Assembly: GCA_013377075.1 (NCBI GenBank)
Contig: JACABD010000015.1
Coordinates: 1 to 49,921, forward strand
DNA length: 49,921 nt
From: Geobacteraceae bacterium
Lineage (GTDB): Bacteria > Desulfobacterota > Desulfuromonadia > Geobacterales > DSM-12255
Direction: 5' to 3'
The notes under the pieces were generated by a model. The model worked only from the letters and a program-made list of their open reading frames with translations. It ran no database searches and was not told the DNA's origin. Shown here piece by piece: positions 10,947 to 49,246 of this stretch; positions within the stretch are counted from its first letter, which is position 1; the number at the start of each line of letters is the position of its first letter. Both the position numbers and the translations under genes were made by a program.

Positions 10947-13900
10947 ATGGAACGCCATGTGATCGGCCGGTGCGGCAATGTAATCAAACTCCTTGCAGCC
11001 ATGGCTGCCTTAACCTTTTTACCTGTCATTTCGCATGCCGGAATTCAGTGTTATGACTGCCATGGGACATCATCCCCGGCAGACATCAGGCCGGTTGATG
11101 CGGAAACACGAAACATCCAGACCGGTGGATTCAAAGGGAATCACCGCCGTCACCTGAAAGCAACCACCGACAGCACCGCCTGCACCCCATGCCACCCTGG
11201 AAGCAGCAGCTACACTTCTTCCCATCGGGACGGCATGATCAAGCTGGCCGGCAATATCAATAGTTCGCCACAAAACGCCCTCTACAAAAACAGCAGTTCG
11301 CAGTTTCCGCAAAGCAGCGCACCGACAACAGGGAGCTGCAGCAATGTCAACTGCCATTTTGAAAACAACACCCCGACTTGGGGGAGCCCTCCACTTACGT
11401 CACTGGATGGGTGCTCCACCTGTCACGGCAACCCTCCTAACGACGGCAGTCACCCGGCCCTGTCCGGCTCCGGCAAGAAACATGGCGACTATTACGGCAC
11501 CAGCAACTCCTGCAGCAGATGCCATGGCATTCATAGCAACTTTGACCATGTTTCTGCCGCAGGCAAGCGCTCTTTGGTCGTGCAGTTCAGTGCCGCACCA
11601 AACAGCAGCGGCAGTTACAGCGGCGACCTGACCTATCCGGCATATCTACCAAGCCAGCATATAGCCCCGAGAAACGGCAGTTGCAGCAACCTCTACTGCC
11701 ATAGCGACGCCCGAGGTGGTGCAGCCAATATTGCGCCAGCCTGGGGAGGATCCCTGCCAGGAGACTGCAGCGGCTGCCACGGCGGCAACCGCAGCTCCTA
11801 CATGCCAATTTCATCGGGCAATCATAAACGCCACATAACCAGCAGCATCTACTGCGGATCCTGCCATTTTGCCACCCTTTCACCAGGGGATGACCGTACA
11901 ATTGTCTCCATACCGAATCATGTCAACGGCACAAAAAATGTTCTCTTCAGTGATGGCGGCAGTTTTGATCAGGTTGGCAAAAGCTGCTCCGGCATCTACT
12001 GCCACGGCGCCACTGCACCGGTCTGGGGAAGCGGTGCCCTGGCCAGCGATTGCACCGGCTGCCATGGTGGCGACGCTGTAAGCGCCAGCCTCATATCGAG
12101 CGGCAAACATGCTGCACACCTGCTAAACATCTCTACCCTTGGCAGCGGTAATGGCTTTGGCTGCGCAACCTGCCACGCCAAGACAGTCTCCTCCAACCGG
12201 ATCGTCATTTCGGCAGCCCATGCCAACAAACTCAAGGATTACTCCGGTGTCATGGCAGGGAAAATAGCGGTGCAGGGTTCGGGACAGTGCAGCAGCAACT
12301 ACTGCCACAGCAGCGGCACAAGGCAAAACCGGTTCTGGAGCATGACAGGAGCAAACTGGTATTCAGAGCGTTCTCTAGGCTGCAACGGCTGTCACGGTAC
12401 CCCTGCCCTGCCCGATGGGATCTTTGCCAGTTTCACGTCGCTTGCCGGGGAACCGAACTATGCCAACATGACTGCAGCCGGACAACGTAACAGCCACAAA
12501 ACTCACACAAGAGGCGGCAGATCAGTCGGGACCACAATCTGTACCAGCTGCCACGCATCAACTGTCGATGCCAGCATAGCCGGGAGACTGAGAAGCTACT
12601 CCACCAGCCACCTCAACAGGGCTATTGATGTCAAGCTTGCCGCCGCAATTCAGGGCAGTTACAGCGCAAATGCCAAAAGCTGCCTGAACACCTACTGCCA
12701 TGGCAGCACCCCTTCACCAGAGTGGGGGGGCGCAACACCGGCCTGTAACGGCTGCCATAGCGCTGAAGGAAGTGGCTTTGCAGCCAGAGGTGCCGGTGCC
12801 CATTCCCTGCACTATCAGAGCACCGTGATGCCGGAAAAAGGCTCCTATGGCGCCATGCCTGCAGCCTCACTCTCAACGGAGTCCAGCTATACCTTCACCT
12901 GCAGCTCCTGCCACACAGCCCCGGCTGAGCATGCCAATGGTAGGGCTGACAAGGAATCGGGAGCTGCCGCCCAGGTCTATTTCGGCTACACAACAAAAGG
13001 GATGAAGGGGAGCTACCGCTACGGAGCAGCTGCCCAACCTGTCACTGACAACGGCTTCAGTTGGAGCGGCGGCAGCTGTATCTCAACCTACTGCCACAGT
13101 AGCGGCAATGGAGGGTTTGCCAATATCACCGGTTTCAGCTGGAAATCCGGCCAGGGAGTTTTGGGAACAGACTGTAGCGGCTGCCATGGCGGCAACAGGA
13201 CAAGTCGTTATCCAATTGCCACAGCCGCCCACACAGCTCACATTAATAACGATGCTGTTATCGGAGTCAGTCTCTCCTGCACCGAATGCCATGCAAAGAC
13301 CGTCAGCGCCGACCGGACTGTGCAAAACAGACGCCTCCATGTTAACCGGCTGAAGGATTACTCCGGCGCATCGGCTGGGCAGTATGATTCTGCTGCAAAA
13401 GTCTGCAATAACCTCTACTGCCATTCAAACGGTAAAACCGGCACCAGCGTCGCCCTGTATCAGACCCCGCCAGCCTGGAACAGCGGCATAACCCTTGGTT
13501 GCAACGGCTGCCACGGCACAGGCACTCCGGAAGGGGCTCCGGATTACGCCTCAGGCGCTGCCGCTTCGGCAACTGCCAACAGCCACCCGGGGCATGCTTC
13601 AGCCAATAGAGTCGCTGCCAACATCAGCTGCACTGTCTGCCACTATGAAACAGCTGCCAGCGGCTCTGCCCTCAGAACTGACCAGAATCCTTCCAGGCAC
13701 ATTAACAAAAACAGCGCTGACGTCTATTTCAATCAGAGTGGCAGCTACAGCGGCGCTGGCAAGAGCTGCACAACCATCTACTGCCACAGCAGCGGCCTGC
13801 CTTTTGACAAAACTGCCAGCTACAAGCAGGTAATCTGGGGGGATGCAAGCCTCACCTGCAGTTCATGCCATGACACAGGTGGAGCTGTAACCGCCCTGTC

Positions 13901-16900
13901 AGGAAGGCATGGCAAGCATACTGACAAATCACGCTACGGCTTTGGCTGCGAACGCTGCCACTCAAGGACAGCTGCAGACGACGCAACCATCAACGAGAAA
14001 CCGCTTCATGTCAATCACGTCAAAAACGTGGACTTCAAAGATGGTGGCAGTTATGCATCTGACCGGGGATGCAACAGCAGCTACTGCCACAGCGGAGCCT
14101 TTGCAAACACGCCGCTGACACCTGTCAACTGGGCTGACACGGACAAAACGATGAAATGCTTCTCCTGCCACAGGGGCCGGACAATTGACAGCAACCAGCA
14201 GAACTGCGAAGCAATTTTAGGCAACTGGAGCGCCTCCAGGCAGGTCTGTTCACCGGAGCTGACCATGGGGACCGATGGTCACGAGCGGTTGGTCAGCATG
14301 AAATGGATCAGGAAGTACCCCTGCACCTATTGCCATACCGGCACTGTGCCGGCAAAAACACCGATCATCGGCAAACCGCCCATTGATGACACCGATAATC
14401 CGGTCTACCTGGGGAGCTACAGCAGTGGCAAGTTCATTCCCCCCAAACATGTCAATGGCGTCAAAGATATTGCCATCAACAGCTTCTGGAAAATTGACGG
14501 TAACCGAAACAGTTATCCTCTCCCTTCGTACAATCCTGCGACTAAAAGCTGTAACAACCTCTACTGCCACAGTGACGGCACCACCGACCCCGCCACGATC
14601 AAGGAACTGAGATGGACTGCAGGCAAAAGGACCGCTTGCAACGGCTGCCATGGCCATTCCCAGGGAGAGTGCCGCAGCTGCCACAATGGTACAACTGTTT
14701 CTAACGGCAAGGTGCTGGCAATATACAGTGGGTGGAAACCGGGTGAAGAGTGGAAATCCGCCATGCCTATGTTCGCCAATGAAGGGGTCAACATGCCGCG
14801 GGCAAACTCCCACGCCAGGCATCTGGAGACATCTTTCAGCTGCAGCGAATGCCATGCCCAGACCGTAGTGAACGGCGACTGCATTGTCTGCCATCGTGAC
14901 GGCGCAACCGGCACCATGAGTGAAACCGCACACCTTAATCCGGCCAAGCATGTCAACAAGATCCGTGACGTCGACTTCCTTCAGGGGGGGATATACAACT
15001 TCCGCACCACAGGTGTGAAGTCCTGCTCAAACACCAAATGCCACGGCAGTAGTGATCCTGTCTGGGGGATGAGTGTCAACAGCGAAGTTATCTGTCTCTC
15101 CTGCCACGGCAACGAAACCCTGCCTGACCAGGATGACTTCGGCAGTTTCAACAATATCCAGGCACGGATCAACATGCCTGAATGGAGAGAGACCGGTCAT
15201 GGCCGCACCGCCGCAAAGGGGAACTACAAGTCAGGCAACCCGCCAGCCGCATTCCCGGCAACCGGCAACCCTTGCTGGTACTGCCACGACAACGGCATTC
15301 TCCATAAGGATGCCAGCAATCCGTTCCGGCTGAAGATGCATAACCAGTTCAACAACCGCTTCGACCACGAATGTGTTTACTGCCACATGTCCCGCACCGA
15401 GGATGAGTGCCGCAGCTGCCACAACTCCATTGAGTCACTGGCACCGCAACTGGCAAACATCAGCAGCTCCCGTGGCGCAACTGACAAGTGGCTGGACGGC
15501 ACTCAGGTAGCACGACCGGATCACCGTAACATGCAGGGGACATCCTGTATGACCGACAGCGGTACCCTCTGCCACTCAAGCGACATGCGTACCCACAACA
15601 CCAACGCCGGCATCTGGAGTACAGACCAGAAAAATGATGTCAAGAATCAGTACATGATGATGGGGGTCTGCCTCCAGTGCCACGACGATGACTCCGGCGG
15701 CAAATGCAACGGCTGTCACAGCGCAACTGACTCGAAATACCAGCTCGGCTACAATCCCGGCTCCGGATACATCAAGCCGGTCAAGGCACGGGCATCCTCC
15801 GTTCACTTTGGACACAAGCATTATCAGGGCTTCATCAGCTCCGGCGGCTGGGACTGGGATCCGAACCGCTACGGCGTTGGCAAGGGTGGCTACAAGGGGA
15901 CATGGAAAGGTGGCAAGTTCTGCTGGGACTGCCATGATCCCCATGGCGACAGCAACATCTATATGATTCATGACAAAGTAGCCACAGAAACAGACGGAAA
16001 ATTCGGCATCCCGATCCCGGAAAAACGGGCAACTGTTAAATTCACCCAGAAAAATACCGGCGCTGATTACGCCAAGAGCAGTGGCACCATCGACGGTATC
16101 TGCAACGTCTGCCACACAAGCGGCAGCCAGCATTACAGAAACGACGGCGGCGACGGCCACAACAGCAGCTATGTCTGCACCAAGTGCCATGAGCACCGCT
16201 TCTCAGACAGCCATGGTGGCGGTCAGAGTTGTAGCAAATGCCACCAGAACAAGCCGGTGCCACGCCATTCGGCCTTTGGTCTGCCGCGGGACTGCACCAA
16301 ATGTCACACCGGCAATGTGGGCGCAAGGGTTGATATCATGGGTCAGTTCAAGGGGAACTCCCACCATGTCCAGGGGGTAACGGTCACCAATGAGCAGTGC
16401 TACCAGTGTCATTTCGAGGCTACCGAGCAGGGGCTCATCGATACCCGCTATCACGAAGGGTACAACTACAAAACATACAGCACCGTCAAAAATGCCAAGG
16501 TTGATCTGGTCATCTACGGAGCAGGAAGCAGACCAACCACTTACAGACTGACATCAACCGCCCAGGGGAGAGCAACGGCAGTCCAGTTCAGTGCCTCGAA
16601 AGTCAGTAGTCCCGACATCAACACCGAACGCAAGGAGATAGCCAAGATCACCGCAGTCTGCATCGGCTGCCACAGTGACCAGAACAATGACACGACACCG
16701 TTCAACGACTGCAAGACTCCACGCCAGTACGCCTGGGATCGTCAGAGCATTGCCAGTAGATATCAGCAGACAGACACAGCCCGCTGGAGCAACTACTCCA
16801 ACGCCAATACCAACAAAAAATCGAAAATAACCAAGGCAATGTCAGCCCATGGTAACGCCGCTGCAAACCAGGGTGGCTGGGACCCAACAACCGGGGTTGA

Positions 16901-18158
16901 TGCCAATATTGCCAACAGCAGAGCCGGATTCAGCGGCATGAGCAGCGCCAGACAGAATGTCCAGTGTTTTGACTGCCACAACTCCCACGGTTCAAAGGCA
17001 ACCGGTGTTACCGCCAGCTACCTGAACTTCTCCGGCAGCTATAATGGCGGCAATCTGAAAGAGGTGACAGCCGGCAAGGGTGGCTACACCATGACCTACT
17101 CTGCCAGAGGCAAGGTAAACGGCAGTGGTGTGGTTAACCCGTTCAATGCAGGAGCAGGCCAGTGCTTCGACTGCCACATGACCAACTCCAGAGGAACAAC
17201 TCCGTGGGGATACAACAGCACTTTTGGCGCGACCCAGCCGATCAAGGGGTATCGTGACGGACTCCGCTTTGGCTCAAGGACTTCGGCAATGTACCAGCTC
17301 GGCACTGAATTCAAAAAGAGCAAACAGATCGTCGGCGGTCACCTGAAGGCTTCAGGCACGGATCAGGGACAGGGGCCGACAACCCAGATTATGGGAACAA
17401 TCAACGGTCTCTGTACCCCATGCCACGACCCCCATGGCATCAGTCCGTCACTTGGAAGCAGCCGTGTAATGGCCATACCGCTGCTCAAAGACACCTGGCT
17501 CACTTCACCATACAAGGAAGATCAACCACCACCAGCTCCGTACGGCTCACGCAGTACCCCCAAGAGCTGGGGTGGGATCACCCCAGGCACAGGACCAAGC
17601 CTGCCCTACGATACCCAGAACGACAAGTGGTACCGCTATAACACCGACAAAACCACTTTTGGTTCCGGCAAAATAGCTGAGACTGACGAGCAGTTTGCCG
17701 GTCTATGTCTGCGCTGCCACCCGAAAAAATCCCTGCTTGGCAGCTATACCGGTGCAGTCAACAGCTCTACCAACGCCAGCAAGGCCCCGTGGAAATCCGT
17801 TGCCAGAGTGCATGCATCGGTCAAGGATTGGGGTAAAAACAAAATCTCCGGCGAGCACTCAAATCCTTGTTCAAAATGCCACCAACCCCACAACTCTGGC
17901 CTGCCAAGGCTTATGCAGACTGACTGCCTGAACTACAATCATCGCAAAGGAGTTCAGGCCGGAGGTCAGGCAATGCGGTCAATCGACCAGGCGGGGGGTA
18001 ACGCTACCGGCCACGGACAGTATCGTGGCTATCCTTCCGCCAACCTGCTCACGAGTACCGTAGAAAATGAAGCATCTATTTCCTGTCACTCCGGCGCAAC
18101 CAATAACAGCGGCACCTGGCCTGACAAGAACCTCTGGAACAGGGTGACGCCATGGTAG
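10947..18158 (+). CDS. Giant secreted multiheme c-type cytochrome (about 42 CXXCH and 11 CX4CH motifs)
   Basis: A 2,403-residue protein with a signal peptide (about residues 9-32, ending SHA-GIQ) followed at once by the first heme site, CYDCH. By eye there are 42 CXXCH motifs and 11 CX4CH motifs (for example CSNLYCH, CSGIYCH, CTTIYCH), the latter known from Geobacter CxxxxCH/CXXCH cytochromes. The first 1,400 residues repeat a module of 100-160 residues: CX4CH, then CXGCHG, then HxxHI-like histidines and a CXXCHAxTV site. The last 1,000 residues have only CXXCH, unevenly spaced, many as CHDPHG or CHNSHG. One CX7CH (CMTDSGTLCH) and a lone SISCH near the C-terminus also occur. It ends NRVTPW without a membrane anchor. 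ATG follows GGGAGA. The likely role is electron transfer outside the inner membrane, with the FnIII protein as partner. Confidence 0.93.
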   Translation: MERHVIGRCGNVIKLLAAMAALTFLPVISHAGIQCYDCHGTSSPADIRPVDAETRNIQTGGFKGNHRRHLKATTDSTACTPCHPGSSSYTSSHRDGMIKLAGNINSSPQNALYKNSSSQFPQSSAPTTGSCSNVNCHFENNTPTWGSPPLTSLDGCSTCHGNPPNDGSHPALSGSGKKHGDYYGTSNSCSRCHGIHSNFDHVSAAGKRSLVVQFSAAPNSSGSYSGDLTYPAYLPSQHIAPRNGSCSNLYCHSDARGGAANIAPAWGGSLPGDCSGCHGGNRSSYMPISSGNHKRHITSSIYCGSCHFATLSPGDDRTIVSIPNHVNGTKNVLFSDGGSFDQVGKSCSGIYCHGATAPVWGSGALASDCTGCHGGDAVSASLISSGKHAAHLLNISTLGSGNGFGCATCHAKTVSSNRIVISAAHANKLKDYSGVMAGKIAVQGSGQCSSNYCHSSGTRQNRFWSMTGANWYSERSLGCNGCHGTPALPDGIFASFTSLAGEPNYANMTAAGQRNSHKTHTRGGRSVGTTICTSCHASTVDASIAGRLRSYSTSHLNRAIDVKLAAAIQGSYSANAKSCLNTYCHGSTPSPEWGGATPACNGCHSAEGSGFAARGAGAHSLHYQSTVMPEKGSYGAMPAASLSTESSYTFTCSSCHTAPAEHANGRADKESGAAAQVYFGYTTKGMKGSYRYGAAAQPVTDNGFSWSGGSCISTYCHSSGNGGFANITGFSWKSGQGVLGTDCSGCHGGNRTSRYPIATAAHTAHINNDAVIGVSLSCTECHAKTVSADRTVQNRRLHVNRLKDYSGASAGQYDSAAKVCNNLYCHSNGKTGTSVALYQTPPAWNSGITLGCNGCHGTGTPEGAPDYASGAAASATANSHPGHASANRVAANISCTVCHYETAASGSALRTDQNPSRHINKNSADVYFNQSGSYSGAGKSCTTIYCHSSGLPFDKTASYKQVIWGDASLTCSSCHDTGGAVTALSGRHGKHTDKSRYGFGCERCHSRTAADDATINEKPLHVNHVKNVDFKDGGSYASDRGCNSSYCHSGAFANTPLTPVNWADTDKTMKCFSCHRGRTIDSNQQNCEAILGNWSASRQVCSPELTMGTDGHERLVSMKWIRKYPCTYCHTGTVPAKTPIIGKPPIDDTDNPVYLGSYSSGKFIPPKHVNGVKDIAINSFWKIDGNRNSYPLPSYNPATKSCNNLYCHSDGTTDPATIKELRWTAGKRTACNGCHGHSQGECRSCHNGTTVSNGKVLAIYSGWKPGEEWKSAMPMFANEGVNMPRANSHARHLETSFSCSECHAQTVVNGDCIVCHRDGATGTMSETAHLNPAKHVNKIRDVDFLQGGIYNFRTTGVKSCSNTKCHGSSDPVWGMSVNSEVICLSCHGNETLPDQDDFGSFNNIQARINMPEWRETGHGRTAAKGNYKSGNPPAAFPATGNPCWYCHDNGILHKDASNPFRLKMHNQFNNRFDHECVYCHMSRTEDECRSCHNSIESLAPQLANISSSRGATDKWLDGTQVARPDHRNMQGTSCMTDSGTLCHSSDMRTHNTNAGIWSTDQKNDVKNQYMMMGVCLQCHDDDSGGKCNGCHSATDSKYQLGYNPGSGYIKPVKARASSVHFGHKHYQGFISSGGWDWDPNRYGVGKGGYKGTWKGGKFCWDCHDPHGDSNIYMIHDKVATETDGKFGIPIPEKRATVKFTQKNTGADYAKSSGTIDGICNVCHTSGSQHYRNDGGDGHNSSYVCTKCHEHRFSDSHGGGQSCSKCHQNKPVPRHSAFGLPRDCTKCHTGNVGARVDIMGQFKGNSHHVQGVTVTNEQCYQCHFEATEQGLIDTRYHEGYNYKTYSTVKNAKVDLVIYGAGSRPTTYRLTSTAQGRATAVQFSASKVSSPDINTERKEIAKITAVCIGCHSDQNNDTTPFNDCKTPRQYAWDRQSIASRYQQTDTARWSNYSNANTNKKSKITKAMSAHGNAAANQGGWDPTTGVDANIANSRAGFSGMSSARQNVQCFDCHNSHGSKATGVTASYLNFSGSYNGGNLKEVTAGKGGYTMTYSARGKVNGSGVVNPFNAGAGQCFDCHMTNSRGTTPWGYNSTFGATQPIKGYRDGLRFGSRTSAMYQLGTEFKKSKQIVGGHLKASGTDQGQGPTTQIMGTINGLCTPCHDPHGISPSLGSSRVMAIPLLKDTWLTSPYKEDQPPPAPYGSRSTPKSWGGITPGTGPSLPYDTQNDKWYRYNTDKTTFGSGKIAETDEQFAGLCLRCHPKKSLLGSYTGAVNSSTNASKAPWKSVARVHASVKDWGKNKISGEHSNPCSKCHQPHNSGLPRLMQTDCLNYNHRKGVQAGGQAMRSIDQAGGNATGHGQYRGYPSANLLTSTVENEASISCHSGATNNSGTWPDKNLWNRVTPW

Positions 18159-18223
18159 ACAATATTTTTCGACAGAGAGCTAATTTTGGAGATGCAATGA
18201 TAATGAGCCGTGGAGGGGAACAA

Positions 18224-21200
18224 ATGGCCGGCAATTCAATTACAATCAGATCCGGAATAAATAACGGATTTTTCAAGCGCAGTCTGCTGTCACTGTTCAT
18301 GGTGATGTCACTGCTACTGCCCCAGACCGTTACAGCCATTGCGGCTGGTGGAGATGTCATCCCCCCGTTTCCGCTACGGGATAACCGACCTGGCAAACAG
18401 GTACCGACTGCCACAGCTGTTGATTCGAGCGGTAACACCATCATCAGCGGCTACCAGATTCTGCCCGGAGAAGTCAACGAAGAGATCTACACCGTCAAGA
18501 TGAGCAGCAGCGGCAGCATCCTCTGGCGAGGAATCTACAACGTCTCAGGCACCTCTGCCCGCGCGGTGGCAGTGGCAGTGGACCAAAGCGGCGCCGTCTT
18601 TGTCACAGCAAATGTCGCCGGTGCAGACACCAGCATCATAACCGTCAAATACCCGGCAAATCCGGTGCTTAAAGGGGATGGTACCGCTCAGGAGTCATGG
18701 GTAAAGAGCTTCGATGCTATCGGCACCGACATGGCCACAGCAATAGCAGTAACAGCTGCCAATGGCTATGTCTATGTCAGCGGCTCTTCACGATTCAGCG
18801 ACAACGAATCGTTCATGCTGCAAAAATATCAGGATAATGGCAGTAGCGCCACCCTGGTCTGGCAGATCCCGGCTGCAGGGAATGCGACAACTGGCAAAGC
18901 CCGTAGCGTCGCCCTCAGCAGCTCCATGGTTGCGGTCACCGGCCAGTCATGGAGCGGCAGTGACCATTTTTTCAAAACCATTGTCTACAATCTTGACGGC
19001 CAGAAACTCTGGGAAAAACAGTATGCTATGGCAACTCCGCCGCAGGGGCATGTTTACAATGACAGCGGCCTGTTCATCCGCTTCGACTCCAAAGAGCATC
19101 TGGTCGTAAGCGGTACGGTCTACAACGACCATAACAGCGACATGTACACTGCCAAATACTGCACCGGCAGCAATGCCCCGTGCAGTGGCAAAAATCCGGG
19201 CGATCTCCTCTGGGAAAAGATCTACAACGGCGGTTCCGATGATGAGCCAAGCGGGCTGGCCGTTGACAGTGAAAGCCGCTTTCTCGACAACGTCTACGTC
19301 ACCGGCCGCACCATGTCCACCGGAGGCATCAACAAAGTTTTTACCGCAAGGTATGAGGATGCCGTTGGTACTCCGGTTGAAAAATGGCAGGCAGTCTTCT
19401 CACCCGGCGCAGAAAGCAGCGCCACCCCTCTCTCCATAGCAGCTGACCAGAGTGGCAATCTGTACATTGCCGGTTATTCTGACATTTCCGGTAGCGTGGA
19501 TTTTCAGACCATTAAATACCGCAAAGGGTGTCAACCTGTTAATGGCAGCTGTGCAGAAATCTGGCAGCGCAGGTTCAACGGCAGCGCCAACCTTTCAGAC
19601 AGAGCAATCAGCGCCATGGTTGATCCGCTCACCGGCAGACTACTGGTGGCCGGCTATGCCGATGAAACCGCCCCTATTGAAAGCGGAGCCACAACCGCAG
19701 CCATAGGTACCAGCGACTCGCCGGTCAGGATTGTCAATAGCGGTGCCAGTTGGGCAACTGACCGCTGGCGCGGTTATTACGTCAAACTGACCTCCGGCAT
19801 CAACAACGGCGAATTCAGGCAAATCCTCTCCAATGATGCCACTACCTTGACCGTTGCCCATAATTTCCCGGCATCGGCCTCTGGCAAGACAGTGGCAAGT
19901 GGTGACAGTTATTACCTGTTCGACCTGGACAACCTTGACTACTACCTGGTCAAATACGATCAGGGAACACTCAACCCACCGACCAACCTGACCGCAACAA
20001 CCACCTCCAACAGCGCCATCAACCTGAGCTGGCAGGACAATAACGACGTCACTCCGAAATTCAGGGTGGAGCGCTGCACAAACGGCACTACACACCTGCT
20101 GGCAACGCCATGTAACTTCGACATCCCTTCTGAAGTTACGGTGGTTTCCGATGGCAGCAGCAGTACCAGCTTCACAGACAGCTCTCTCACTGGCGACAAG
20201 TATTACTACTACCGGGTAAAAGCCTACAGCGGTGCTGATTTCGCCTCTGCCGACCAGATCACCTATCCGACCGCCACGGTACATGCCATAACCCAGCTTA
20301 CCGGCAGCGTTGCGCCTGCGGCGATCTACAGCTACGCCGGTGTGGCTAACAACGATGATTATGCCCTCTCCATTGCCGTTGGCCCGGATCGCAACCCGGT
20401 TGTCACCGGCAAAAGTTTCTTCACCCCAGGCGGCTTTGATTACTACACCGTCAAACTTGATCGCAGCACCATGGCAAAAACCTGGAGCCAGCGCTACAAC
20501 GACCCTGAAGAGCAGGGTGACGAGGCAACCTGTGTCGCAGTTGACAACAACAACCAAATCATAGTTTCCGGCTACTCCTGGCTCCATAATCCTGCGACAC
20601 TGACAGACATGAACTCCATCTACACCATCAAATATCTGGCAAATGCCGCAGCGGAGCCTGAAACCGACGAAGCAATAATCAACCAGTGGAGCCATCAGTA
20701 TAACGGGCCAAACGGTGGCGGTGATGACAAGGCTATCTCCATTGCAACCACCACCGACAGTAGCAATAACGTCGCTGTTGTCGGCATGGGGCTGCACTCT
20801 CCACTCGACCTTCAAAAACATGACATCTATGTGCTCCGCTTTCCACCGGGTGGTGCCGGTGCAGCCGGTTACTGGGCTGCCACACCGATACACAAGGGGG
20901 ATGACAATCAGCCTGTTGCAGTCGCCTTTGACCCCTCCGGCAATGTCATCATCACCGGCATGACCGGCAATCTGGTCAACTCAGTGTTACGCTATGGCAT
21001 CTACACCGCCAAGTTTGCCGCTTCCACCGGCGCACTCCTCTGGGAAAGTACCTATGGCGGACAGAATGGCGATGCAATGGCCAACGATCTGGCCGTTGAC
21101 CCATCCGGGAACATCTATGTGACCGGTTTCAGCACCAATACCAGTGGCAACAGGGATTTTGTCACCCTGAAGTACGATGCGAGCGGCAATCTACAGTGGG

Positions 21201-24200
21201 GTGGAGCAAAGGTTTACGATGGTCCGGCTGCCAGTGATGACGAAGCTGTCTCAATCAAGTATGACCCGATTGACAAAAGTATTGTCGTTGCTGGTGACAG
21301 CCAGACCGACGTTAGCAACAGCGACATTCATGTCATCCGGTACAGCGCTGCAGACGGCGCTGTCATCTGGGAAAAACGGATACTGCGGGAAAACAGTACG
21401 GAAGAGATGTTTGACATGACCATGAACCCATCCGGTGCAGTTTATATCGCCGCAACCACAACAAACAGCGCCAACCCGGATCAGGCCAATAACCGTGACA
21501 TCATCACCTTCAAGATCGATTCACTGGGCAATCTGGACAACAATACAACCCTCTACGGCTCACAGGAATGGTTTGACAAACCGTACGGCATTGTCTCCAA
21601 CAGTTATGGAGAAATCTTTGTCGCCGGTATTGCCATGAACAGCCAGAGCAATGCCGATTACGTTGTACTGAAAATCAGTGGTGATGACATCCAGAGCCCC
21701 TACCCGGTCACAATAGTCCCATCCTACATCTCGGCAAAGCTCGACTGGACAGACAATTCACGCAATGAAAGCGGCTACGAAATAGCCCGCAGAAACGGTG
21801 CCTGCACGACTGAACCGATCGCCTGGAATCCGGCCACCGAGATCATCGCAACCGTGCCGCAGGGAACCCTGACCTACACCGACAGCACACTGACACAGGC
21901 AACCAGTTACTGCTATGGTATCAGGACAAAAAGCGCCTCAAGCTTTTCACGCTGGGTGAACAGCACCGTTACCACCGGTACGCCACCGCCACCGGATACA
22001 ACATTTGCCTCCAACCTCAACATCCCTAATAATAATGGGGAAAGCGGTTACGGTGCCAAGTCGGTTGACAGCACCACCGTAAAATTCACCTGGGGAATAC
22101 CGTCCTACCCGACTGCAGCCACCGGCTTTGAGGTCTGGCGCTGTATGGATGGCAGCGGTAACAGCCCGTGCAGCGACTTTACCCTCCTTGCCAACGTAAC
22201 CGGAGCAACCACCAGCAGCTATACTGACAGCGCTGTTTGCCCGGGCGCAACCTACCGCTACAAGGTAAAGGCTCTCGGCACAGGCTGGAGCTCCGATTTT
22301 TCAGCTGCCAGTGGCGTGATTCTCCCGTCGCCGGACAGCGTCCTCATGGACGGCGGTTTTGAATCAGCTGACCCGGACACACCCTGGTACAGCCCGGTGG
22401 GGGGCAACTATGCAGGTTCAGCGACAACTTCCTCAGCAGCAGTAAAAAGCGGCAGCCGTGGCTTCATCTTGACAGCTGACAACAGCCAGGTAACCGGATC
22501 AAGTACCTGGAACATCGCCACAGCACCGGCTTCAGCAACGGTTGGTTCAAAACTGAGCGCTCTTGGTGACAACTCACTCCTGGCTGCAGCTGGCTGGAGG
22601 TCAAAGAGAGCCCTGACGGCACTCACTGCCAACACGGTTTTCCAGGTGACTGTCAGCCGCGACACAGCCATTACTGACGGCACTGAGCCACAGCTTGGCT
22701 TCAGGGATCTGCGGGTGTACGACAGCACCACCAACACCGTTCTGCCGTCACTCTTCATCACCAGTTCGTCGGCAACCAGCGCTACCATCTGGTTTAAAAA
22801 CGGTGCCAACAGCAGCGGCATATACCTCTATTACGGTAATCCGACGGCAACCCTCACTGACCCTGCTCTCAGCGGCAATCAGATCCCGGTTGATCTCCCG
22901 GCACCATCCCTTGGCAGGAAGCAGCCGGTCAACATTGTAAACGGCGGGAAATACACCATCAGCGCCTGCCTCAAGGCAAATCTCAACAAGGGTCAGCTTG
23001 TGGTCAACGGCAACAATATGGTTACGACCATTCCGATCATTGACAGCAAGAGTGGCAACACCAACTACAGTTTCAACAAGGACGGCAACTGGCACTGCCT
23101 GAGCGAAGTCTCCACCAGCACCATCACCACAGTAAACGCCAACACGTATCTCCGCGCCTATCTTACCGCCTCAAGCGGTGACACAGCCACCATTGCCACC
23201 AGCTTCCCCGACGGCACTGCCTATGTTGATGACCTGTCCGTCACCCCGTACTACGGACTTACTGTCAGCAGATCCTCGGAAAGACAACTCGACCTTGCCT
23301 GGAGCAGGAGTTCCTTTGATGCCACCGGCTACAAGATCGAGCGCTGCACCGGCAGTGACAGCTACTGTAGCAGCAATCCGGCAAACTTCAGCCAGATTGC
23401 TACCGTAACAGCCACAACCGGCAGTTATAGTGACATCTCAGTTCTTCCGGATACCACCTACACCTACCGGATCCGTCCGTTCAAAAGCTTTGCCCAGGCA
23501 TGTACCGGAAGTCCAGGCTGGAACGGCAGCGGCTGGGATGGTGCCTATTCGGCCATTAACGCCACAGCAGCAGCCACAACCACCAACAATCCGCCATCGT
23601 CCTTAACCGCCAAAGGGATCAACACCACACTGGTGAATGTCAACTGGAATGACACCACCGATACCGAGTCCGGTTTTGAACTCTGGCGCTGCAAGACAGC
23701 CGGATGCAGCGATTTCAGCAAGCTGCCGGTGGAGCTGCCGCCAGCATCAGGAAGCGGCGCCTATCCGACCTACAGCGACAGCACTGTCTGTAGCAGCAGT
23801 AACTACAGCTACAGGGTCAAGGCCTATAACGCTGGTCTCAGCCTTGCCGCAGGGGGAGTCTGGACTAAGCGGGTACCTCTGACAATGACCAATGGCCAGG
23901 CAAACTTTCAGACAAAAATCACTGTCTCCTACGCTAGCGGCATGAACAGCAACTTCTCCGACCTGCGGATTGTCGATGTCACTGCCAACCGCGAACTCCC
24001 CTACTGGCTGGAGAGCGCCACAAGCGGCGTTTCGGCAGTAATCTGGTTCAAACCTCTGAATCCTGCAAACAGCCTCTACCTCTACTTCGGCAATGCTTCA
24101 GCCACAGCTTCCAGTGTCAGCGGCAGCCAGATCTTTGATTTTTTCGATGATTTTAACGGCACCACCCTCAGCTCCCAGTGGAGTTCAAGCGTGACCGGAG

Positions 24201-27200
24201 CAGCAACTCTAACCGTTGGCAGCGGTCTGGCAAACCTGGATGCAACTGCAAACAGCTCGAAAGGAAACTATCTCTCCATGAGCGCAGTGTCGCCGCCAGC
24301 CCAGCCCTACCGTCTGGAGGCAAGAGTCAGTGTATCCTCTGCCTACCTCGGCCAGAACCTCATCAGAATTCGCGGACTTGGCGGCATTGGTGATACGGGG
24401 ATCTTCGATGTGGGTAGTAACAAGCTGCAGGCATATTTCAACAGCGCAGCCTCAAACCAGCAGGTACCTGCTGACACGTTTGTCCGCTGGCGAGCCGCAA
24501 TGACCGGCGACAGCAACAACAGCTGGAGCGTCTTCAAGGAGGATGGCAGCCCGATCTATTCGAACAGTTATACCGGAACACCATATGGAATATCATTTAT
24601 GGCTGGCGATAGCGGCGGCGGTAACGGCAAGTTCAGCATCGACTGGATCTATGCGCGCAAATATGCCACAGTCGAACCGGTAGTCACTCCTGGAACGGTC
24701 GAAACAAATGGCAGCGGTTACAGTTTCAGTCAGCTCTGGGACGGTTTTTTTTCCACTGTCGCCACCGCAGTCACACCGCTTCCGGCAAACCTGCTGACTG
24801 ACCCGGACTTTGAAAACGGTGTCACATCCTGGCCGACAGCAGTCGGCACAGCCACAGGCACAAGCAGCGACAGCACAACGGGCAATTACTACAGCGGTGC
24901 AAAGAGTCTTAAGCTGACCGCCACCGGTGCAACCCTCGGACTGGCACAGACAGTCACCGTAATTCCTGGAGCAAGCTATACCCTCTCCGGCTACATGAAG
25001 AGCACCCTGACAGCCGGCACTGCAATTTGCGACGTTTACGGAACCAATATCGACTCTCCAGGCATTAATGCCAGCGGCACCACTGCCTGGTCATTAAGGA
25101 GTGAGACCGTAACTATCCCGACCGGGACAACCTCGGTACAGATCCGCTGCTTTGCCAACGGCGCTCCCCAAGGATCTGCCTGGATCGACATGGTGCAGTT
25201 TGTACCACAGCTGCCGGTCACTGCTGTCACAGCCAGCCGCGCCTCCGAATCCCAGATCAACCTGACCTGGAGTTTCCCGGCCACAGTTACCGACCTGACC
25301 GGATTCAAAATTGACCGCTGCGCCGATTCTGCCTGCAGCAGCGTGCTGACAACCCTCACTGCAAACGGAGCAGCAACCAGAAGCTTCAGCGACACCGGCC
25401 TGCCGATCAACAGTAGTTACTGGTACAGGGTCAGGGCATACAAGAGCGAGGATCCGTCCTGCAACAGCGCCAAAGGTTTCTGGGAAACAGCAAGCAGCGC
25501 GGCGCCATATCCGGCAGCATCCACCTCGCTGCTTGCACCGGGGAACCTCACTCTCTCCCACGTGGTTTCAACGCTGTGCGAAGACCTGAGACTGGTGGAC
25601 AGTGACGGTAATTACCTGAGCTACTATCTTGCCAACAAGGATGATCTCCTCTCACAGTGCAACCGCACTGCCACCAAACTGATCGTCAAGTTCCCAAGCG
25701 TGCCGATTACCACCGGCAAGAGTGTTTATCTCTACTACGACAACCCGCTGGCAACCGCCAAGAGTAGCGGCTCTGCAACTTTCGACTTTTTTGACGACTT
25801 TGATTACACCGACATAAGCGGGCTTGACGCCGCGAAATGGGATCTTGCCTCATCCAACCTGACCGGTTTCACCATTGCCAACAGCATGCTGCACGGCACC
25901 AATTCCGGCTCACATCTGCGCACCAAGGCTCCATACAGTTTTGGCGCAGGTTATGCTGTACAGGCAAAAGTCAAAACCCAGACTATACCAAGCTACGGCT
26001 TCACCCCGATCAGCTTTTACAGCAGTTGGTACAGCAATGCCGGAATTTTGCATTCCCCTGGCTCCGAATACTACTCTAACAACGCTGCCTACACACAGAT
26101 GTCTACAACGCCGCCGACAGGCACTGCCCAGTCAGATTCCCTTATTTTCCAGATAAACAACAAAAACAGCAGTTCGTTCACTCCGAGCATTAGCGATGTT
26201 GAGGGGAGCAATAACCTCAGCTACTGGAGTCCAGGCGATATCAGCCAGAGCATCACTGCCAGACCGGTTTTGCTCGGCATACGCGTTGACTCCAGCTATG
26301 CGGGTTACGGTTATTCAGCTGACTGGGAATGGCTGAGGGTCAGAAAATCCACGACCACTCCGCCATCATCTGCCCTCGGATCACTGGATGTCAGCGGCGC
26401 GCCCTACACACTTGCACAGGACAGCAGCAGCTGGCGTTTCCGCAAGCCGGTCACCCTCAGCTATTCGGGGTCGGCTCTGACTGATTATCAGGTGAATGTT
26501 GTCACAGACACCACGACCCTGGCAGTTGACCGGAACACCCTCACCTGGACAGATACCACATCAGGAGAAACCTCCTTCACCATCGAACGGTGTGATGGGT
26601 CTGACTGCACCACTAGCAGCTTCCCAAGGGTTGACAAGTCAATTACCGTAGCTGCCAAAAGCGGATTTGGTTCACAGGTGAGCTACACAGACCGGGAGAC
26701 TGCTGCCGCTGTCAACTACTGCTACCGGGTAAAAGGGGTAAATCCTGCCTGGACAACAACAACACCGGTTGCCGGAGAAACAGCGCCGAGCAACACCGTC
26801 TGCCAGCTCTCCGATGATCCGGCAGCGCCAACAAATGTTGTTGCCACCCCAGGGACATCAAGCGTTGCCCTCAGCTGGACTGATGGTTCCAAAAACGAAA
26901 CCGGCTTCAAACTGGAGCGCTGCCAGGATAATACCAACGGTGAAACTGCCTGCGGCTTCATTGCCGGAAATAGCACCGTCACCCTGCTGCCACCAAATGA
27001 CAATTCACTCTCAGCCATGGCCAGTTACACCGACAACAGCGTCGGCTGTTCCGGCACGTTCCGCTACAGAATCTCTGCATGGCGTGGTGACTTAAGCGCT
27101 CCAATCTGGTTGCGCGGACCGTCAGCTGCCACTTCACCGGTTTCAATCGGTATCCCGGCAGCCCCTTCTAATGTTGTTGCCACAAGGGTAAATGAGCAGC

Positions 27201-30200
27201 AGATCAATATATCCTGGCGTGACAACACCCCCGATGAATCCAGCTTTGAAGTCTGGCGCTGCATAAATGCCGGCTGTTCTGACTTTGCCAAACTACCCGT
27301 CACTGTTGCCGCAGCTTCCGGTGTCGGCAGCACTGTTACCTATGCAGACAATTATCTGATCACACCTGGTTCCACCTACGGCTACCAGATCAAAGCTGTC
27401 ATCACCGGCAGCTGTGCCGCCACCAGCCCGCCAAGCGCACCGAACAGCAACAGCGAATACGCCATTGCCAGCTATGCAGCCCCGACTTCACTGCTCATCG
27501 TGCCAAGCGGCACCACCCAGGCAAATATTACCTGGGTTGAGACAAATGTTGCTGACACCGGCTTTGCTGTAAAACGCTGCCTTGGCGCAGCTCCATGCTC
27601 TGGCAGTTTCAGCAGCGTGGCGACCACTGCACCGTCGGCAACCGGCTATAACGACAGCTCTGCCTGTAGCGACAGCACCTACAACTACAGCATTGCACCA
27701 ATGCTTTCTCCTTCCATGCCGTTCAGCAGTAGCGGCGGGCAATCATGGAAAAGCAGGCTGCCACTCAGTTTTACAAGCTTCCAACCCAACTTTATCACCC
27801 AGGTTGTGATCCCGTACGACACAGAGATGAAGGCTGACTTCAGCGATATCCGCTTCTGGGACCGGACAGCCGGAGTCGAGCTGCCGTACTGGATTGCCAG
27901 TTCAACCGCAACTTCTGCCACCGTATGGTTTAAAAGCGGCGCCAATTCAGCAATAGACATATACTTTGGTAATGCCTCGGCAACCAGCGCTTCATCAAAA
28001 GAGAGCGTCATTGGCAGCGGCCTGGTCGGTTACTGGCCGTTTGAGGAGACAAGCGGCACCATTACCGGCACAACCGCTGACAAAAGCGGCAGCAGCCTGA
28101 ACGGAACCCTGAGCGGGTTCACAACCGGCAACGGTATTGTCACAGGCGGCATCAACGGTAATGCCCTCAAGCTGAACGGCGCACCCTACATCAACATTGC
28201 CGACACAACCGGCTCACCCCTTGACATCACTGATCAGATATCCATAGAGCTCTGGTACAAATATGAAAAGAGCGCCGACTGGGCAAGAATCATCTCAAAA
28301 TCAACCAGTGATGGCAATATACCTTACGAAATGTACGCAATCTGGCTTGATGCCACTGCCGACGCCACCCCGACCAATCCCCAGCAACGGGTCTATTTCG
28401 GCTTTGGCTCGCAAGACTCACCTCCGGCCAACGGCTCAGCCCCCTACTATCAGACTTTAACAGGCCCGCAGCTTACACCTGGGCAGTGGTACCATCTGGT
28501 TGCCCGCTACGACTCGACCACCGGCAAAGAGTCGCTGTTTGTCAATGGCGTAGAGTACGGTCTGAACACGCTGGCAGCCAAACCGAAGATAATTACCAAT
28601 AATGTCCCGCTTTATCTGGGGGGACGTGGCACCGGTTACTCAAATTTTAATCCGCTTAAAGGGACAATCGACGAAGTGCGCCTCTACAGCCGGGCATTGA
28701 CAGCAACAGAAATTGCTTCACGTTACGCCGCCACCCTCCCCGCTGCCTCCTTGGGCAGTAAAATAGCCATTGGTGCAACCGGAACCAGTGTTGTCGGCAA
28801 TGTCATCACGCCGTCACCAGCAAACCTGCTGCTCAACTCTGATTTTGAGTCAGGTACCTCCTACTGGAACGGTTATCCAAATATGTCGGGTATCGGCGCT
28901 TACAGCAGTCCTGTTTTCAGCGGACAATACAGCATGAGAATATTTACGACCCTGACAGCAAACTCATCAAAACTTTTCTATCAATCCCTGACTAATCTGG
29001 CGCCAGGCACAAACTATCTGCTGAAAGGGTACATGAACCTGGCACTTCCTCTAGATGCCAACCACGCCGCCTTCTGCTACCTGACAAGCTGGGGTGTCAA
29101 CTGGTCAAGCCCGTCCATCTGGATCTCCGGAACTGACAGCAGAAACAACAGCGGCTGGGTACCTTTCTCAGTACCGATTACCATCCCCCTGAACAATCCA
29201 GGGGGAGCCATAACAATCGGTAATGTCGAGTGTGGTATCTCCAGGGGGGCAGCCGGAAGTACGGCAACTAACACGGTTTACTTTGACGCTGTCCAGCTGG
29301 TGGCCGATCAGCCGACAGTGCTTGCAGCAACCAGAGCCTCCGAGTCCGAGGTAAAACTTTCCTGGAACGATCCATTTACTGATGAAACCGGCATGACCAT
29401 TTACCGCTGTCAGGGGAGCAGTTGCAGCTTTGGCACCATACCATACAAACAGCTTGCTGCCTCGGTTCAATCCTATGTCGATACAGGGCTCATACCGGGT
29501 GAAACCTACAAGTACAAAGTGACCGCTTACAAAACGGCCACATGCCCATGGGAGAGCAACCCCAGCAACACCGTATCAATCGCCACTATCCAGACGGCAC
29601 CAACGCTTTCAGCAACCACGCTGACAGCAACATCGGTGCAACTGACCTGGACAGATACAGCCAATGGTGAAACAGGTTACAACATCGAAAGATGCGTCGG
29701 GAGCAGCTGTAATCCGGCTGGTAGCGAGATCTATCATAGCATCACCCCTACGGCACGAACAATTGACGGACTCAAGGCACGCTACAGCTTTAACGGCAAC
29801 CTGAACGATTCATCGGGAAGCGGACTCCATCTGACTGCAGGCTCCGGTACTCCGGCATACGAAGATGGCGGTCTGATCCTCTCCTCGGCTAACAGCATCT
29901 ACAGCCCTTCGACCAGCATTCTGGATGGCGACCAGCACACCATAGAGTTTGACATGAAGCTGCGAACCATTCCAGGCAACTCACGCATATTCACCTTTGA
30001 AGTTTCCGGGAGTACAAGATCCCCGGAAATCTGGACGACTAATGGCGACGCACGACTCGCCTGGCGCTATGATCCAGGCTACACAGGCGTCACTGGGGTT
30101 GGCTCATCGGGCGTCAATGGCACCCCTTTCAACACCGGCACCTGGTATCACGTGGTTGGTGTCAAGAACGGCGGCTCTTTGAAATTGTACATTAATGGCG

Positions 30201-31096
30201 TTCTTGTGTCTGATACCACCGTCGCCAATCCCAAAACCCCTGGAGCCGGAGTACTCTGGTTTGCCCATAACTATAACCCTGACATGGTGATCAAGAATTT
30301 CTCCATCTACAACACCAGCTACTCAGGTCAGAACAACGTCACATTTACCGACAGCCAGGCATGCCCGAACAGCACCTACACCTACCGGGTAACAGCGTTC
30401 AACCCGGCCTGGCCGACATCTGGAACAGGTTCAGCTGTTGCCAGCAACAATGCAACTGCCACAACCCTGATCTTTAATCCGCCAAGATCTCTGGTTGCCC
30501 AGGGCACAAATGAAACCCAGAATGATCTCTCATGGCTTGCCAGCACGGTAAATGACCAGACAGGGTTCAGAGTCAGGAAGTGCCAGGGGAGCGACTGCAC
30601 TACCGACACTGTAGGTAATCAGCTCACCTACAGCAGCAGCGGCTTGACGGCCGAGACAGGCTACTGCTACGCAGTTGCCTCCTACAAGGCAACCACCTAT
30701 TGCAACGGCTCGGGTGGTGACGCCAATGGAATAATTTCGTCATATACTGCTGACAGCTGCGCAACCACGTCATCACGGCACCCTGTCAGCCTGACAGCTA
30801 CAGCTCTTGGATCTTTCAGAATCCAGCTCAACTGGAAAGACCAGTCCGGAGATGAAGAGGCGTTTGAAGTGGAAACGAAGCTTTGGAACGGTCAATGGGT
30901 AAAAACAGCAAAAGTGACTGGACATTCCGGAGTTGGAAATGATATGCAGTTCATAGACACAATCGGAATCAATCCACTCAAGACCTACACTTACAGGGTG
31001 AGAGCGTATCGCGGTGGAGTAAGTTCACCACCAAGCAACGAGGCGTCGGCAACAACGCCGCCGTTTATAAAAAATAACAGCAATACCTGTCAGTAA
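18224..31096 (+). CDS. Giant secreted FnIII/beta-propeller surface protein
   Basis: About 4,290 residues. ATG at 18224 is preferred over the in-frame ATG at 18152, which overlaps the cytochrome stop, because GGAGGGGA (18212-18219) precedes it and a signal peptide (KRSLLSLFMVMSLLLPQTV, ending AIA) follows. Approximate domains: SBBP/delta-60-like propeller repeats 40-580 and 700-1160 (unit pattern GNIYVTGFS...VTLKYDASGN); about 14 FnIII domains from 585 to the end; DUF2341-type segments near 1450, 1890, 2450 and 3190 (NFSDLRIVD, ELPYWL); CBM4/9-like segments near 1380, 2190 and 3530; LamG-like domains near 3265-3505 and 3845-4040. No heme motif was seen. Most FnIII units carry a cysteine pair of the type RC...C. 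There is no evident C-terminal anchor. It probably works as an adhesin or scaffold for the cytochrome encoded just upstream. Confidence 0.88.
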   Translation: MAGNSITIRSGINNGFFKRSLLSLFMVMSLLLPQTVTAIAAGGDVIPPFPLRDNRPGKQVPTATAVDSSGNTIISGYQILPGEVNEEIYTVKMSSSGSILWRGIYNVSGTSARAVAVAVDQSGAVFVTANVAGADTSIITVKYPANPVLKGDGTAQESWVKSFDAIGTDMATAIAVTAANGYVYVSGSSRFSDNESFMLQKYQDNGSSATLVWQIPAAGNATTGKARSVALSSSMVAVTGQSWSGSDHFFKTIVYNLDGQKLWEKQYAMATPPQGHVYNDSGLFIRFDSKEHLVVSGTVYNDHNSDMYTAKYCTGSNAPCSGKNPGDLLWEKIYNGGSDDEPSGLAVDSESRFLDNVYVTGRTMSTGGINKVFTARYEDAVGTPVEKWQAVFSPGAESSATPLSIAADQSGNLYIAGYSDISGSVDFQTIKYRKGCQPVNGSCAEIWQRRFNGSANLSDRAISAMVDPLTGRLLVAGYADETAPIESGATTAAIGTSDSPVRIVNSGASWATDRWRGYYVKLTSGINNGEFRQILSNDATTLTVAHNFPASASGKTVASGDSYYLFDLDNLDYYLVKYDQGTLNPPTNLTATTTSNSAINLSWQDNNDVTPKFRVERCTNGTTHLLATPCNFDIPSEVTVVSDGSSSTSFTDSSLTGDKYYYYRVKAYSGADFASADQITYPTATVHAITQLTGSVAPAAIYSYAGVANNDDYALSIAVGPDRNPVVTGKSFFTPGGFDYYTVKLDRSTMAKTWSQRYNDPEEQGDEATCVAVDNNNQIIVSGYSWLHNPATLTDMNSIYTIKYLANAAAEPETDEAIINQWSHQYNGPNGGGDDKAISIATTTDSSNNVAVVGMGLHSPLDLQKHDIYVLRFPPGGAGAAGYWAATPIHKGDDNQPVAVAFDPSGNVIITGMTGNLVNSVLRYGIYTAKFAASTGALLWESTYGGQNGDAMANDLAVDPSGNIYVTGFSTNTSGNRDFVTLKYDASGNLQWGGAKVYDGPAASDDEAVSIKYDPIDKSIVVAGDSQTDVSNSDIHVIRYSAADGAVIWEKRILRENSTEEMFDMTMNPSGAVYIAATTTNSANPDQANNRDIITFKIDSLGNLDNNTTLYGSQEWFDKPYGIVSNSYGEIFVAGIAMNSQSNADYVVLKISGDDIQSPYPVTIVPSYISAKLDWTDNSRNESGYEIARRNGACTTEPIAWNPATEIIATVPQGTLTYTDSTLTQATSYCYGIRTKSASSFSRWVNSTVTTGTPPPPDTTFASNLNIPNNNGESGYGAKSVDSTTVKFTWGIPSYPTAATGFEVWRCMDGSGNSPCSDFTLLANVTGATTSSYTDSAVCPGATYRYKVKALGTGWSSDFSAASGVILPSPDSVLMDGGFESADPDTPWYSPVGGNYAGSATTSSAAVKSGSRGFILTADNSQVTGSSTWNIATAPASATVGSKLSALGDNSLLAAAGWRSKRALTALTANTVFQVTVSRDTAITDGTEPQLGFRDLRVYDSTTNTVLPSLFITSSSATSATIWFKNGANSSGIYLYYGNPTATLTDPALSGNQIPVDLPAPSLGRKQPVNIVNGGKYTISACLKANLNKGQLVVNGNNMVTTIPIIDSKSGNTNYSFNKDGNWHCLSEVSTSTITTVNANTYLRAYLTASSGDTATIATSFPDGTAYVDDLSVTPYYGLTVSRSSERQLDLAWSRSSFDATGYKIERCTGSDSYCSSNPANFSQIATVTATTGSYSDISVLPDTTYTYRIRPFKSFAQACTGSPGWNGSGWDGAYSAINATAAATTTNNPPSSLTAKGINTTLVNVNWNDTTDTESGFELWRCKTAGCSDFSKLPVELPPASGSGAYPTYSDSTVCSSSNYSYRVKAYNAGLSLAAGGVWTKRVPLTMTNGQANFQTKITVSYASGMNSNFSDLRIVDVTANRELPYWLESATSGVSAVIWFKPLNPANSLYLYFGNASATASSVSGSQIFDFFDDFNGTTLSSQWSSSVTGAATLTVGSGLANLDATANSSKGNYLSMSAVSPPAQPYRLEARVSVSSAYLGQNLIRIRGLGGIGDTGIFDVGSNKLQAYFNSAASNQQVPADTFVRWRAAMTGDSNNSWSVFKEDGSPIYSNSYTGTPYGISFMAGDSGGGNGKFSIDWIYARKYATVEPVVTPGTVETNGSGYSFSQLWDGFFSTVATAVTPLPANLLTDPDFENGVTSWPTAVGTATGTSSDSTTGNYYSGAKSLKLTATGATLGLAQTVTVIPGASYTLSGYMKSTLTAGTAICDVYGTNIDSPGINASGTTAWSLRSETVTIPTGTTSVQIRCFANGAPQGSAWIDMVQFVPQLPVTAVTASRASESQINLTWSFPATVTDLTGFKIDRCADSACSSVLTTLTANGAATRSFSDTGLPINSSYWYRVRAYKSEDPSCNSAKGFWETASSAAPYPAASTSLLAPGNLTLSHVVSTLCEDLRLVDSDGNYLSYYLANKDDLLSQCNRTATKLIVKFPSVPITTGKSVYLYYDNPLATAKSSGSATFDFFDDFDYTDISGLDAAKWDLASSNLTGFTIANSMLHGTNSGSHLRTKAPYSFGAGYAVQAKVKTQTIPSYGFTPISFYSSWYSNAGILHSPGSEYYSNNAAYTQMSTTPPTGTAQSDSLIFQINNKNSSSFTPSISDVEGSNNLSYWSPGDISQSITARPVLLGIRVDSSYAGYGYSADWEWLRVRKSTTTPPSSALGSLDVSGAPYTLAQDSSSWRFRKPVTLSYSGSALTDYQVNVVTDTTTLAVDRNTLTWTDTTSGETSFTIERCDGSDCTTSSFPRVDKSITVAAKSGFGSQVSYTDRETAAAVNYCYRVKGVNPAWTTTTPVAGETAPSNTVCQLSDDPAAPTNVVATPGTSSVALSWTDGSKNETGFKLERCQDNTNGETACGFIAGNSTVTLLPPNDNSLSAMASYTDNSVGCSGTFRYRISAWRGDLSAPIWLRGPSAATSPVSIGIPAAPSNVVATRVNEQQINISWRDNTPDESSFEVWRCINAGCSDFAKLPVTVAAASGVGSTVTYADNYLITPGSTYGYQIKAVITGSCAATSPPSAPNSNSEYAIASYAAPTSLLIVPSGTTQANITWVETNVADTGFAVKRCLGAAPCSGSFSSVATTAPSATGYNDSSACSDSTYNYSIAPMLSPSMPFSSSGGQSWKSRLPLSFTSFQPNFITQVVIPYDTEMKADFSDIRFWDRTAGVELPYWIASSTATSATVWFKSGANSAIDIYFGNASATSASSKESVIGSGLVGYWPFEETSGTITGTTADKSGSSLNGTLSGFTTGNGIVTGGINGNALKLNGAPYINIADTTGSPLDITDQISIELWYKYEKSADWARIISKSTSDGNIPYEMYAIWLDATADATPTNPQQRVYFGFGSQDSPPANGSAPYYQTLTGPQLTPGQWYHLVARYDSTTGKESLFVNGVEYGLNTLAAKPKIITNNVPLYLGGRGTGYSNFNPLKGTIDEVRLYSRALTATEIASRYAATLPAASLGSKIAIGATGTSVVGNVITPSPANLLLNSDFESGTSYWNGYPNMSGIGAYSSPVFSGQYSMRIFTTLTANSSKLFYQSLTNLAPGTNYLLKGYMNLALPLDANHAAFCYLTSWGVNWSSPSIWISGTDSRNNSGWVPFSVPITIPLNNPGGAITIGNVECGISRGAAGSTATNTVYFDAVQLVADQPTVLAATRASESEVKLSWNDPFTDETGMTIYRCQGSSCSFGTIPYKQLAASVQSYVDTGLIPGETYKYKVTAYKTATCPWESNPSNTVSIATIQTAPTLSATTLTATSVQLTWTDTANGETGYNIERCVGSSCNPAGSEIYHSITPTARTIDGLKARYSFNGNLNDSSGSGLHLTAGSGTPAYEDGGLILSSANSIYSPSTSILDGDQHTIEFDMKLRTIPGNSRIFTFEVSGSTRSPEIWTTNGDARLAWRYDPGYTGVTGVGSSGVNGTPFNTGTWYHVVGVKNGGSLKLYINGVLVSDTTVANPKTPGAGVLWFAHNYNPDMVIKNFSIYNTSYSGQNNVTFTDSQACPNSTYTYRVTAFNPAWPTSGTGSAVASNNATATTLIFNPPRSLVAQGTNETQNDLSWLASTVNDQTGFRVRKCQGSDCTTDTVGNQLTYSSSGLTAETGYCYAVASYKATTYCNGSGGDANGIISSYTADSCATTSSRHPVSLTATALGSFRIQLNWKDQSGDEEAFEVETKLWNGQWVKTAKVTGHSGVGNDMQFIDTIGINPLKTYTYRVRAYRGGVSSPPSNEASATTPPFIKNNSNTCQ

Positions 31097-49185: not shown

Positions 49186-49193
49186 ACCGCTCC

Positions 49194-49214
49194 TTATAGT
49201 GTAAAATACTATAA
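49194..49214. promoter_or_regulatory. Palindromic operator of the toxin-antitoxin pair
   Basis: TTATAGT (49194-49200) and ACTATAA (49208-49214) are perfect seven-base arms around seven bases, a few bases upstream of the toxin ribosome site. The ACTATAA arms also serve as a likely -10 region on the minus strand, so a repressor bound here would block the promoter. Confidence 0.65.
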
Positions 49215-49246
49215 GCAATTGCAACAGTCAACAGAGGCATTCCAAT

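Follow-up and report, generated by a model that had tools for sequence, protein, structure and literature searches.

The stretch of Geobacteraceae DNA analysed here (the window; 49,921 nucleotides) carries on its forward strand a gene for a multiheme c-type cytochrome of 2,403 amino acids (10947-18158), which starts with ATG and has no internal stops. A scripted six-frame count finds 42 CXXCH and 11 CX4CH motifs in this reading frame, exactly the numbers obtained by eye in the original prediction, and elsewhere in the window no frame contains three or more CXXCH. Residue shuffling of the cytochrome (1,000 shuffles) yields on average 0.26 CXXCH and 0.31 CX4CH, with a maximum of 3 for each. A motif scan finds no CX3CH, CX5CH or CXXCK in the protein. 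Alignment with 40 relatives identifies a 54th site, CX7CH (C1534-X7-C1542-H1543; 15546-15575, forward strand), at a position where each of the 41 aligned homologues has some heme-type motif, which brings the family-aware count to 54. The predicted total of 53 is thus right for both motif classes and one short overall, having missed the CX7CH site at residue 1543. The 69 histidines outside the motifs are enough to provide one distal ligand per site, and the apoprotein has a predicted mass of 256 kDa and a predicted pI of 8.8.

Downstream on the same strand, open reading frame and profile analysis place a gene for a giant protein of about 4,300 amino acids (18197-31096), with propeller-type repeats (SBBP, delta-60 and NHL), fn3, DUF2341, LamG_3 and CBM_4_9 domains and no CXXCH. 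Its mechanical open reading frame (18152-31096) overlaps the cytochrome stop codon. A Shine-Dalgarno GGAG followed by an ATG at 18197 (18188-18199, forward strand) suggests that this ATG is the true start; a stretch encoding GDAM recurs here in several homologues. Towards the ends of the window, on the reverse strand, are a phage-integrase-family recombinase (501-1967) and a TumE-type toxin adjoining an HVO_A0114-type protein, which together resemble a toxin-antitoxin pair (48533-49224).

The cytochrome translation begins with a probable Sec signal peptide (residues 1-31, ...VISHA/GIQCYDCH; 10947-11039, forward strand). Alignment of 41 distinct homologues, including the window cytochrome, divides the remainder, all on the forward strand, into the N-terminal part of a conserved core (11040-11729; sites at residues 39, 83, 137, 160, 193 and 252), an inserted array of seven extra triheme modules with 21 sites (11730-14123, boundaries approximate) and the C-terminal part of the core with 27 sites (14124-18155). 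The core comprises 33 sites, each present in 39-41 of the 41 homologues, so that core and array together account for the 54. The array is absent from two paralogues (1,525 and 1,546 amino acids) encoded in the same genome (G000; 3.7 Mb in 126 contigs), which share 57-60% identity with both ends of the window cytochrome and lack about 800 amino acids of its middle. Four cysteines outside the heme sites (1087, 1101, 1922 and 2327) are conserved in nearly all homologues, and may form disulfides or link the cytochrome to its partner.

The window cytochrome is a member of the known domain family GSu_C4xC__C2xCH (PF09698, 109.6 bits against a cut-off of 21.7; TIGR01904, 278.7 bits against a cut-off of 27, in 11 stretches), with which it shares repeats in which CXXCH comes after a CX4CH site. 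Within that family it belongs to a specific subfamily marked by the 33-site core, the triheme array insertion and the linked giant partner. Further large members of the family are encoded in the same genome, among them cytochromes with 31 CXXCH and 11 CX4CH motifs in 2,710 amino acids and 31 and 12 in 1,785. Both are TIGR01904 proteins; the first (contig C58, locus L044) is adjoined by a second such cytochrome of at least 1,038 amino acids, and the other lies on contig C105 (L045).

A profile search with the cytochrome finds matches in 38 of 141 genomes of the order, about 22 of them with full-length matches. The difference arises because the last ~520 residues (16284-17966, forward strand, start approximate) also occur elsewhere, both as nearly stand-alone proteins of about 590-640 amino acids with 8 CXXCH and as the terminal part of other cytochromes of up to 3,123 amino acids. 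The source genome itself has a stand-alone homologue of this C-terminal domain (584 amino acids, 8 CXXCH; C61:71806-73308, L047:5734-7488), as do many relatives. Strong matches are found in 7 of 395 genomes sampled across the phylum. A scan of GTDB genome contigs returned 11 homologues, mostly in Geobacter and Geobacteraceae metagenome-assembled genomes (MAGs), with others in MAGs labelled Nitrospirae, Proteobacteria and Deltaproteobacteria.

Columns that are almost universally CXXCH keep a constant spacing across the alignment, with the exception of column 1316 (CXXCH in 38 sequences, CX4CH in one). In columns that are mostly CX4CH, by contrast, the spacing often varies. Two such positions are CX4CH in all 41 homologues (residues 137 and 1208), and elsewhere the motif drifts to CX3CH (residue 252: CX4CH in 35, CX3CH in 6), to CX6CH or CX7CH (residue 1366: CX4CH in 39, one each of the others) or in several directions (residue 1246: CX4CH in 37, CXXCH in 2, CX3CH in 1 and CX6CH in 1). 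The window cytochrome is one of the two with CXXCH at residue 1246 (14670-14684, forward strand). Drift is widest at residue 1543, where 28 homologues have CX4CH and the others a loop of two (1), three (2), five (2), seven (4), eight (1) or nine (3) residues. No CX5-CX9CH motif is found among the 41 homologues outside well-occupied core columns.

When all CX2-CX9CH motifs are counted, the site total is a multiple of three in each of the 40 complete homologues, following 33+3n: 33 in 19 sequences, 36 in 15, and 42, 45, 48, 51, 54 and 57 in one each. Narrower definitions give multiples of three less often (CXXCH only, 20/40; CX2 and CX4, 23/40; CX2-4, 28/40), the CX2-CX9 range having been picked after inspection of the data. 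Kinship inflates the 33 and 36 classes, and the six larger totals are the better evidence for the rule, though three of them (L052, L096 and L101) share a clade. Nor is the rule perfectly clean: two homologues (L112 and L117, from genomes G008 and G007) lack core site 1316, the sole core losses among the 41, and reach 33 through a non-core site.

Because spacing interconverts at aligned positions, distal histidines are present in matching stoichiometry (37 conserved distal histidine columns for 33 core sites in the 41 homologues) and totals follow 33+3n, the CX4CH-type sites probably carry heme. Heme attachment at non-canonical spacings has precedent: in MmcA a mass shift shows heme at CX3CH and CX4CH (PMC11024163), cytochrome c3 has two CX4CH (PMC10454114), and in the OmcZ filament structure heme is attached at a CX14CH motif whose loop is solvent-exposed (PMC11208441). 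The competing reading is that CX4CH and the other CX3-CX9CH motifs bind no heme, serving as disulfides or structural Cys/His, and that the protein has 42 hemes in all. The standard motif is CXXCH only, some atypical sites require dedicated lyases for maturation (PMC6976685), and no dedicated heme lyase gene was found beside the window locus. We consider this reading improbable, since the cysteine and histidine of the atypical sites are as invariant as those of CXXCH, distal histidines are conserved in matching number, the window cytochrome itself has CXXCH where homologues have CX4CH, and multiples of three emerge only with the full count. ResB/CcsA-type genes are present on other contigs, and one such set might serve the atypical sites; several ResB/CcsA-type cytochrome maturation genes lie at C56:6516-8748 and C85:1065-17366, none near the window. 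The forecast that more than 50 hemes would be present if CX4CH carries heme holds at 54 predicted sites, with occupancy of CX4CH argued from the comparative evidence of interconversion, distal histidines and the 33+3n rule. We know of no CX5-CX9CH motif that is a demonstrated heme site.

The unit behind the steps of three has the consensus HxxH-CXXCH-HxN-CX4CH-CXXCH. Across 23 modules the HxxH pair, both CXXCH motifs, the cysteine and histidine of the CX4CH site and one tryptophan are invariant; the CX4CH site is CX3CH in two modules with its cysteine and histidine kept. A third distal histidine is common without being invariant, so each unit has three motif histidines and typically three distal ones, which could provide every heme of the unit with bis-His ligation. 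The ligand order (HxxH, CXXCH, His, C-site, C-site) fits that of a cytochrome c7, and the c7-like triheme profile PF14522 scores 73.4 bits over the whole protein, with no single stretch passing alone. Searching the PDB with a module profile gives weak multiheme matches only. AlphaFold2 models are of low confidence for one module (pLDDT 51, 23-row alignment) and for the C-terminal domain (pLDDT 28, 11-row alignment), and a Foldseek search with the module model returned no match.

Simple lineage-specific tandem duplication as the origin of the extra array is disfavoured, because most window modules fit modules of other proteins, in order, better than they fit each other. Such blocks pair window modules 6-8 with modules 2-4 of L120, and window modules 3-4 with modules 4-5 of L052, 5-6 of L096 and 3-4 of L101. 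In the tree the window cytochrome groups with relatives that have no extra array. Blocks of modules have probably been passed down and lost, or else swapped.

The claim that the protein is among the largest multiheme proteins is partly upheld. It is very large at 54 sites, and larger ones have been published with 63, 85 and 86 heme sites (PMC5566968; PMC9012536); one of its own relatives (L096) has 57. Record size is thereby ruled out, and heme number alone is not new. The PCC3 extracellular cytochromes of iron oxidisers likewise combine a very large number of sites (a median of 34 and a maximum of 85) with repetitive sequence (PMC5566968), but a PCC3 locus includes genes for a porin, an inner membrane protein and a second periplasmic multiheme cytochrome; beside the window gene, none of these was recognised. 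The ANME proteins MHC-A, B and C also combine 20-86 heme sites with surface domains (PMC9012536); they are archaeal and have those domains fused in the chain, whereas the window pair has surface-type domains on a separate, adjacent protein.

A comparison with OmcZ-like filament cytochromes had been proposed but is not supported. Searches of the PDB by sequence and by profile did not relate the window protein to any solved structure: no chain, filament cytochromes included, matched the window protein at E<=0.01, and no plausible profile match was found at E<=1. OmcZ resembles the window cytochrome in attaching heme at a non-canonical, long-loop motif, but has 8 hemes and polymerises, and similarity between the two sequences was not detected. 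We therefore regard it as very unlikely that the window cytochrome is the monomer of a polymerising filament of the OmcS, OmcE or OmcZ kind. A Geobacter-type host and the existence of the C-terminal domain as a protein of ~600 amino acids with 8 CXXCH would suit such a monomer; the failure of both protein and profile to match the PDB argues against it, as does a length that varies by the number of internal modules and not obviously by polymerisation.

The original prediction did not link the neighbouring giant gene to the cytochrome. Each of the 40 homologues for which DNA beyond the cytochrome is available, counting the window and homologues from other orders and phyla, has a homologous giant (27-49% identity) encoded directly downstream; it is usually larger than its cytochrome, and its mechanical reading frame starts between about -390 and +90 bases from the cytochrome stop. 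Conversely, a profile of the giant N terminus detects 43 main loci in the 141 genomes. A cytochrome was detected next to 42 of these; the remaining one, at a contig edge, has a 5-CXXCH fragment upstream. Eight cytochromes lack a listed giant: the two that were opened end at a contig edge inside the cytochrome, and the other six, judged by coordinates, seem cut short or accompanied by giants in fragments. Outside the order, the pair is present at L130 and L131, from a different order of the class (36 sites, giant of 3,392 amino acids), and at L132, from a different class of the phylum. Loci L125 and L061 hold the closest relatives both of the window giant and of the window cytochrome. No homologous giant lies near the other large cytochrome loci retrieved from the source genome, within the DNA read there. 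Two single-contig genomes have three pairs each (G046, 4,304,501 bases: L104, L118 and L122; G050, 5,136,364 bases: L100, L107 and L121). The giants end with a penultimate cysteine in 24 of the 40 read (for example ...NTCQ, ...GTCP, ...SSCP; 31080-31096 in the window), several others being cut by the end of the locus; this residue is a possible attachment or disulfide site.

On balance, and with little to spare, the sequence evidence favours a two-gene module in which a cytochrome of up to 54 hemes, built of triheme units, would be displayed by the giant and serve, fixed at the surface, as an electron conduit or reservoir. After export and maturation, the first gene product would bind as many as 54 hemes covalently, mostly in a chain whose units have two CXXCH and one variable-loop site, usually CX4CH; between homologues the array differs in length by whole units. 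The giant, with its β-propeller, fibronectin-III and lectin-like domains, most likely anchors or presents the cytochrome on the cell surface or within the matrix. In that position the pair would link the outer membrane to minerals, electrodes or partner cells.

We give a lower, though appreciable, probability to the main rival, a periplasmic heme wire or electron reservoir that enlarges on the 12-heme GSU1996 and the 27-heme GSU2210; the giant would then have some other role in the envelope. Those proteins, too, chain triheme domains in one polypeptide, GSU1996 is a triheme concatemer with a linear heme array, and a capacitor role in the periplasm has been described for such proteins (PMC10138318). 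No porin family was recognised among the Pfam-scanned neighbours of the window gene; this would fit a periplasmic protein, and under the surface reading it leaves the crossing of the outer membrane by electrons or protein unexplained. The accounts of GSU1996 and GSU2210, however, give CXXCH motifs and a periplasmic location, each GSU1996 domain has a single His-Met heme where a window module typically has three distal histidines, and the window cytochrome has no sequence match to the solved chains. That a giant fn3/LamG/propeller protein is its constant partner suggests a surface role, the description of GSU1996-like proteins consulted mentions no such partner (PMC10138318), and an extended chain of 54 hemes would presumably exceed a normal periplasm.

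The surface module may also be new to the literature, a claim we make tentatively: a cytochrome ranging from 33 to 57 sites in triheme increments, with a dedicated giant propeller/fibronectin protein to display it and with CX4CH-type sites that would form a distinct class of heme c attachment tolerating loops of 2 to 9 residues, CX5-CX9CH included. A search of open-access papers gave no description of the cytochrome-giant pair or of the spacing drift.

For large Geobacter-type cytochromes, heme counts are often taken from CXXCH motifs and nothing else. The 33+3n rule and the spacing drift provide an argument from sequence only that places CX3-CX9CH sites in the heme chain, and the drifted sites are natural variants for asking which spacing the heme-attachment machinery accepts. 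The constant pairing with a giant surface-type protein suggests one specific way in which some relatives of Geobacter may hold very large heme chains in place.
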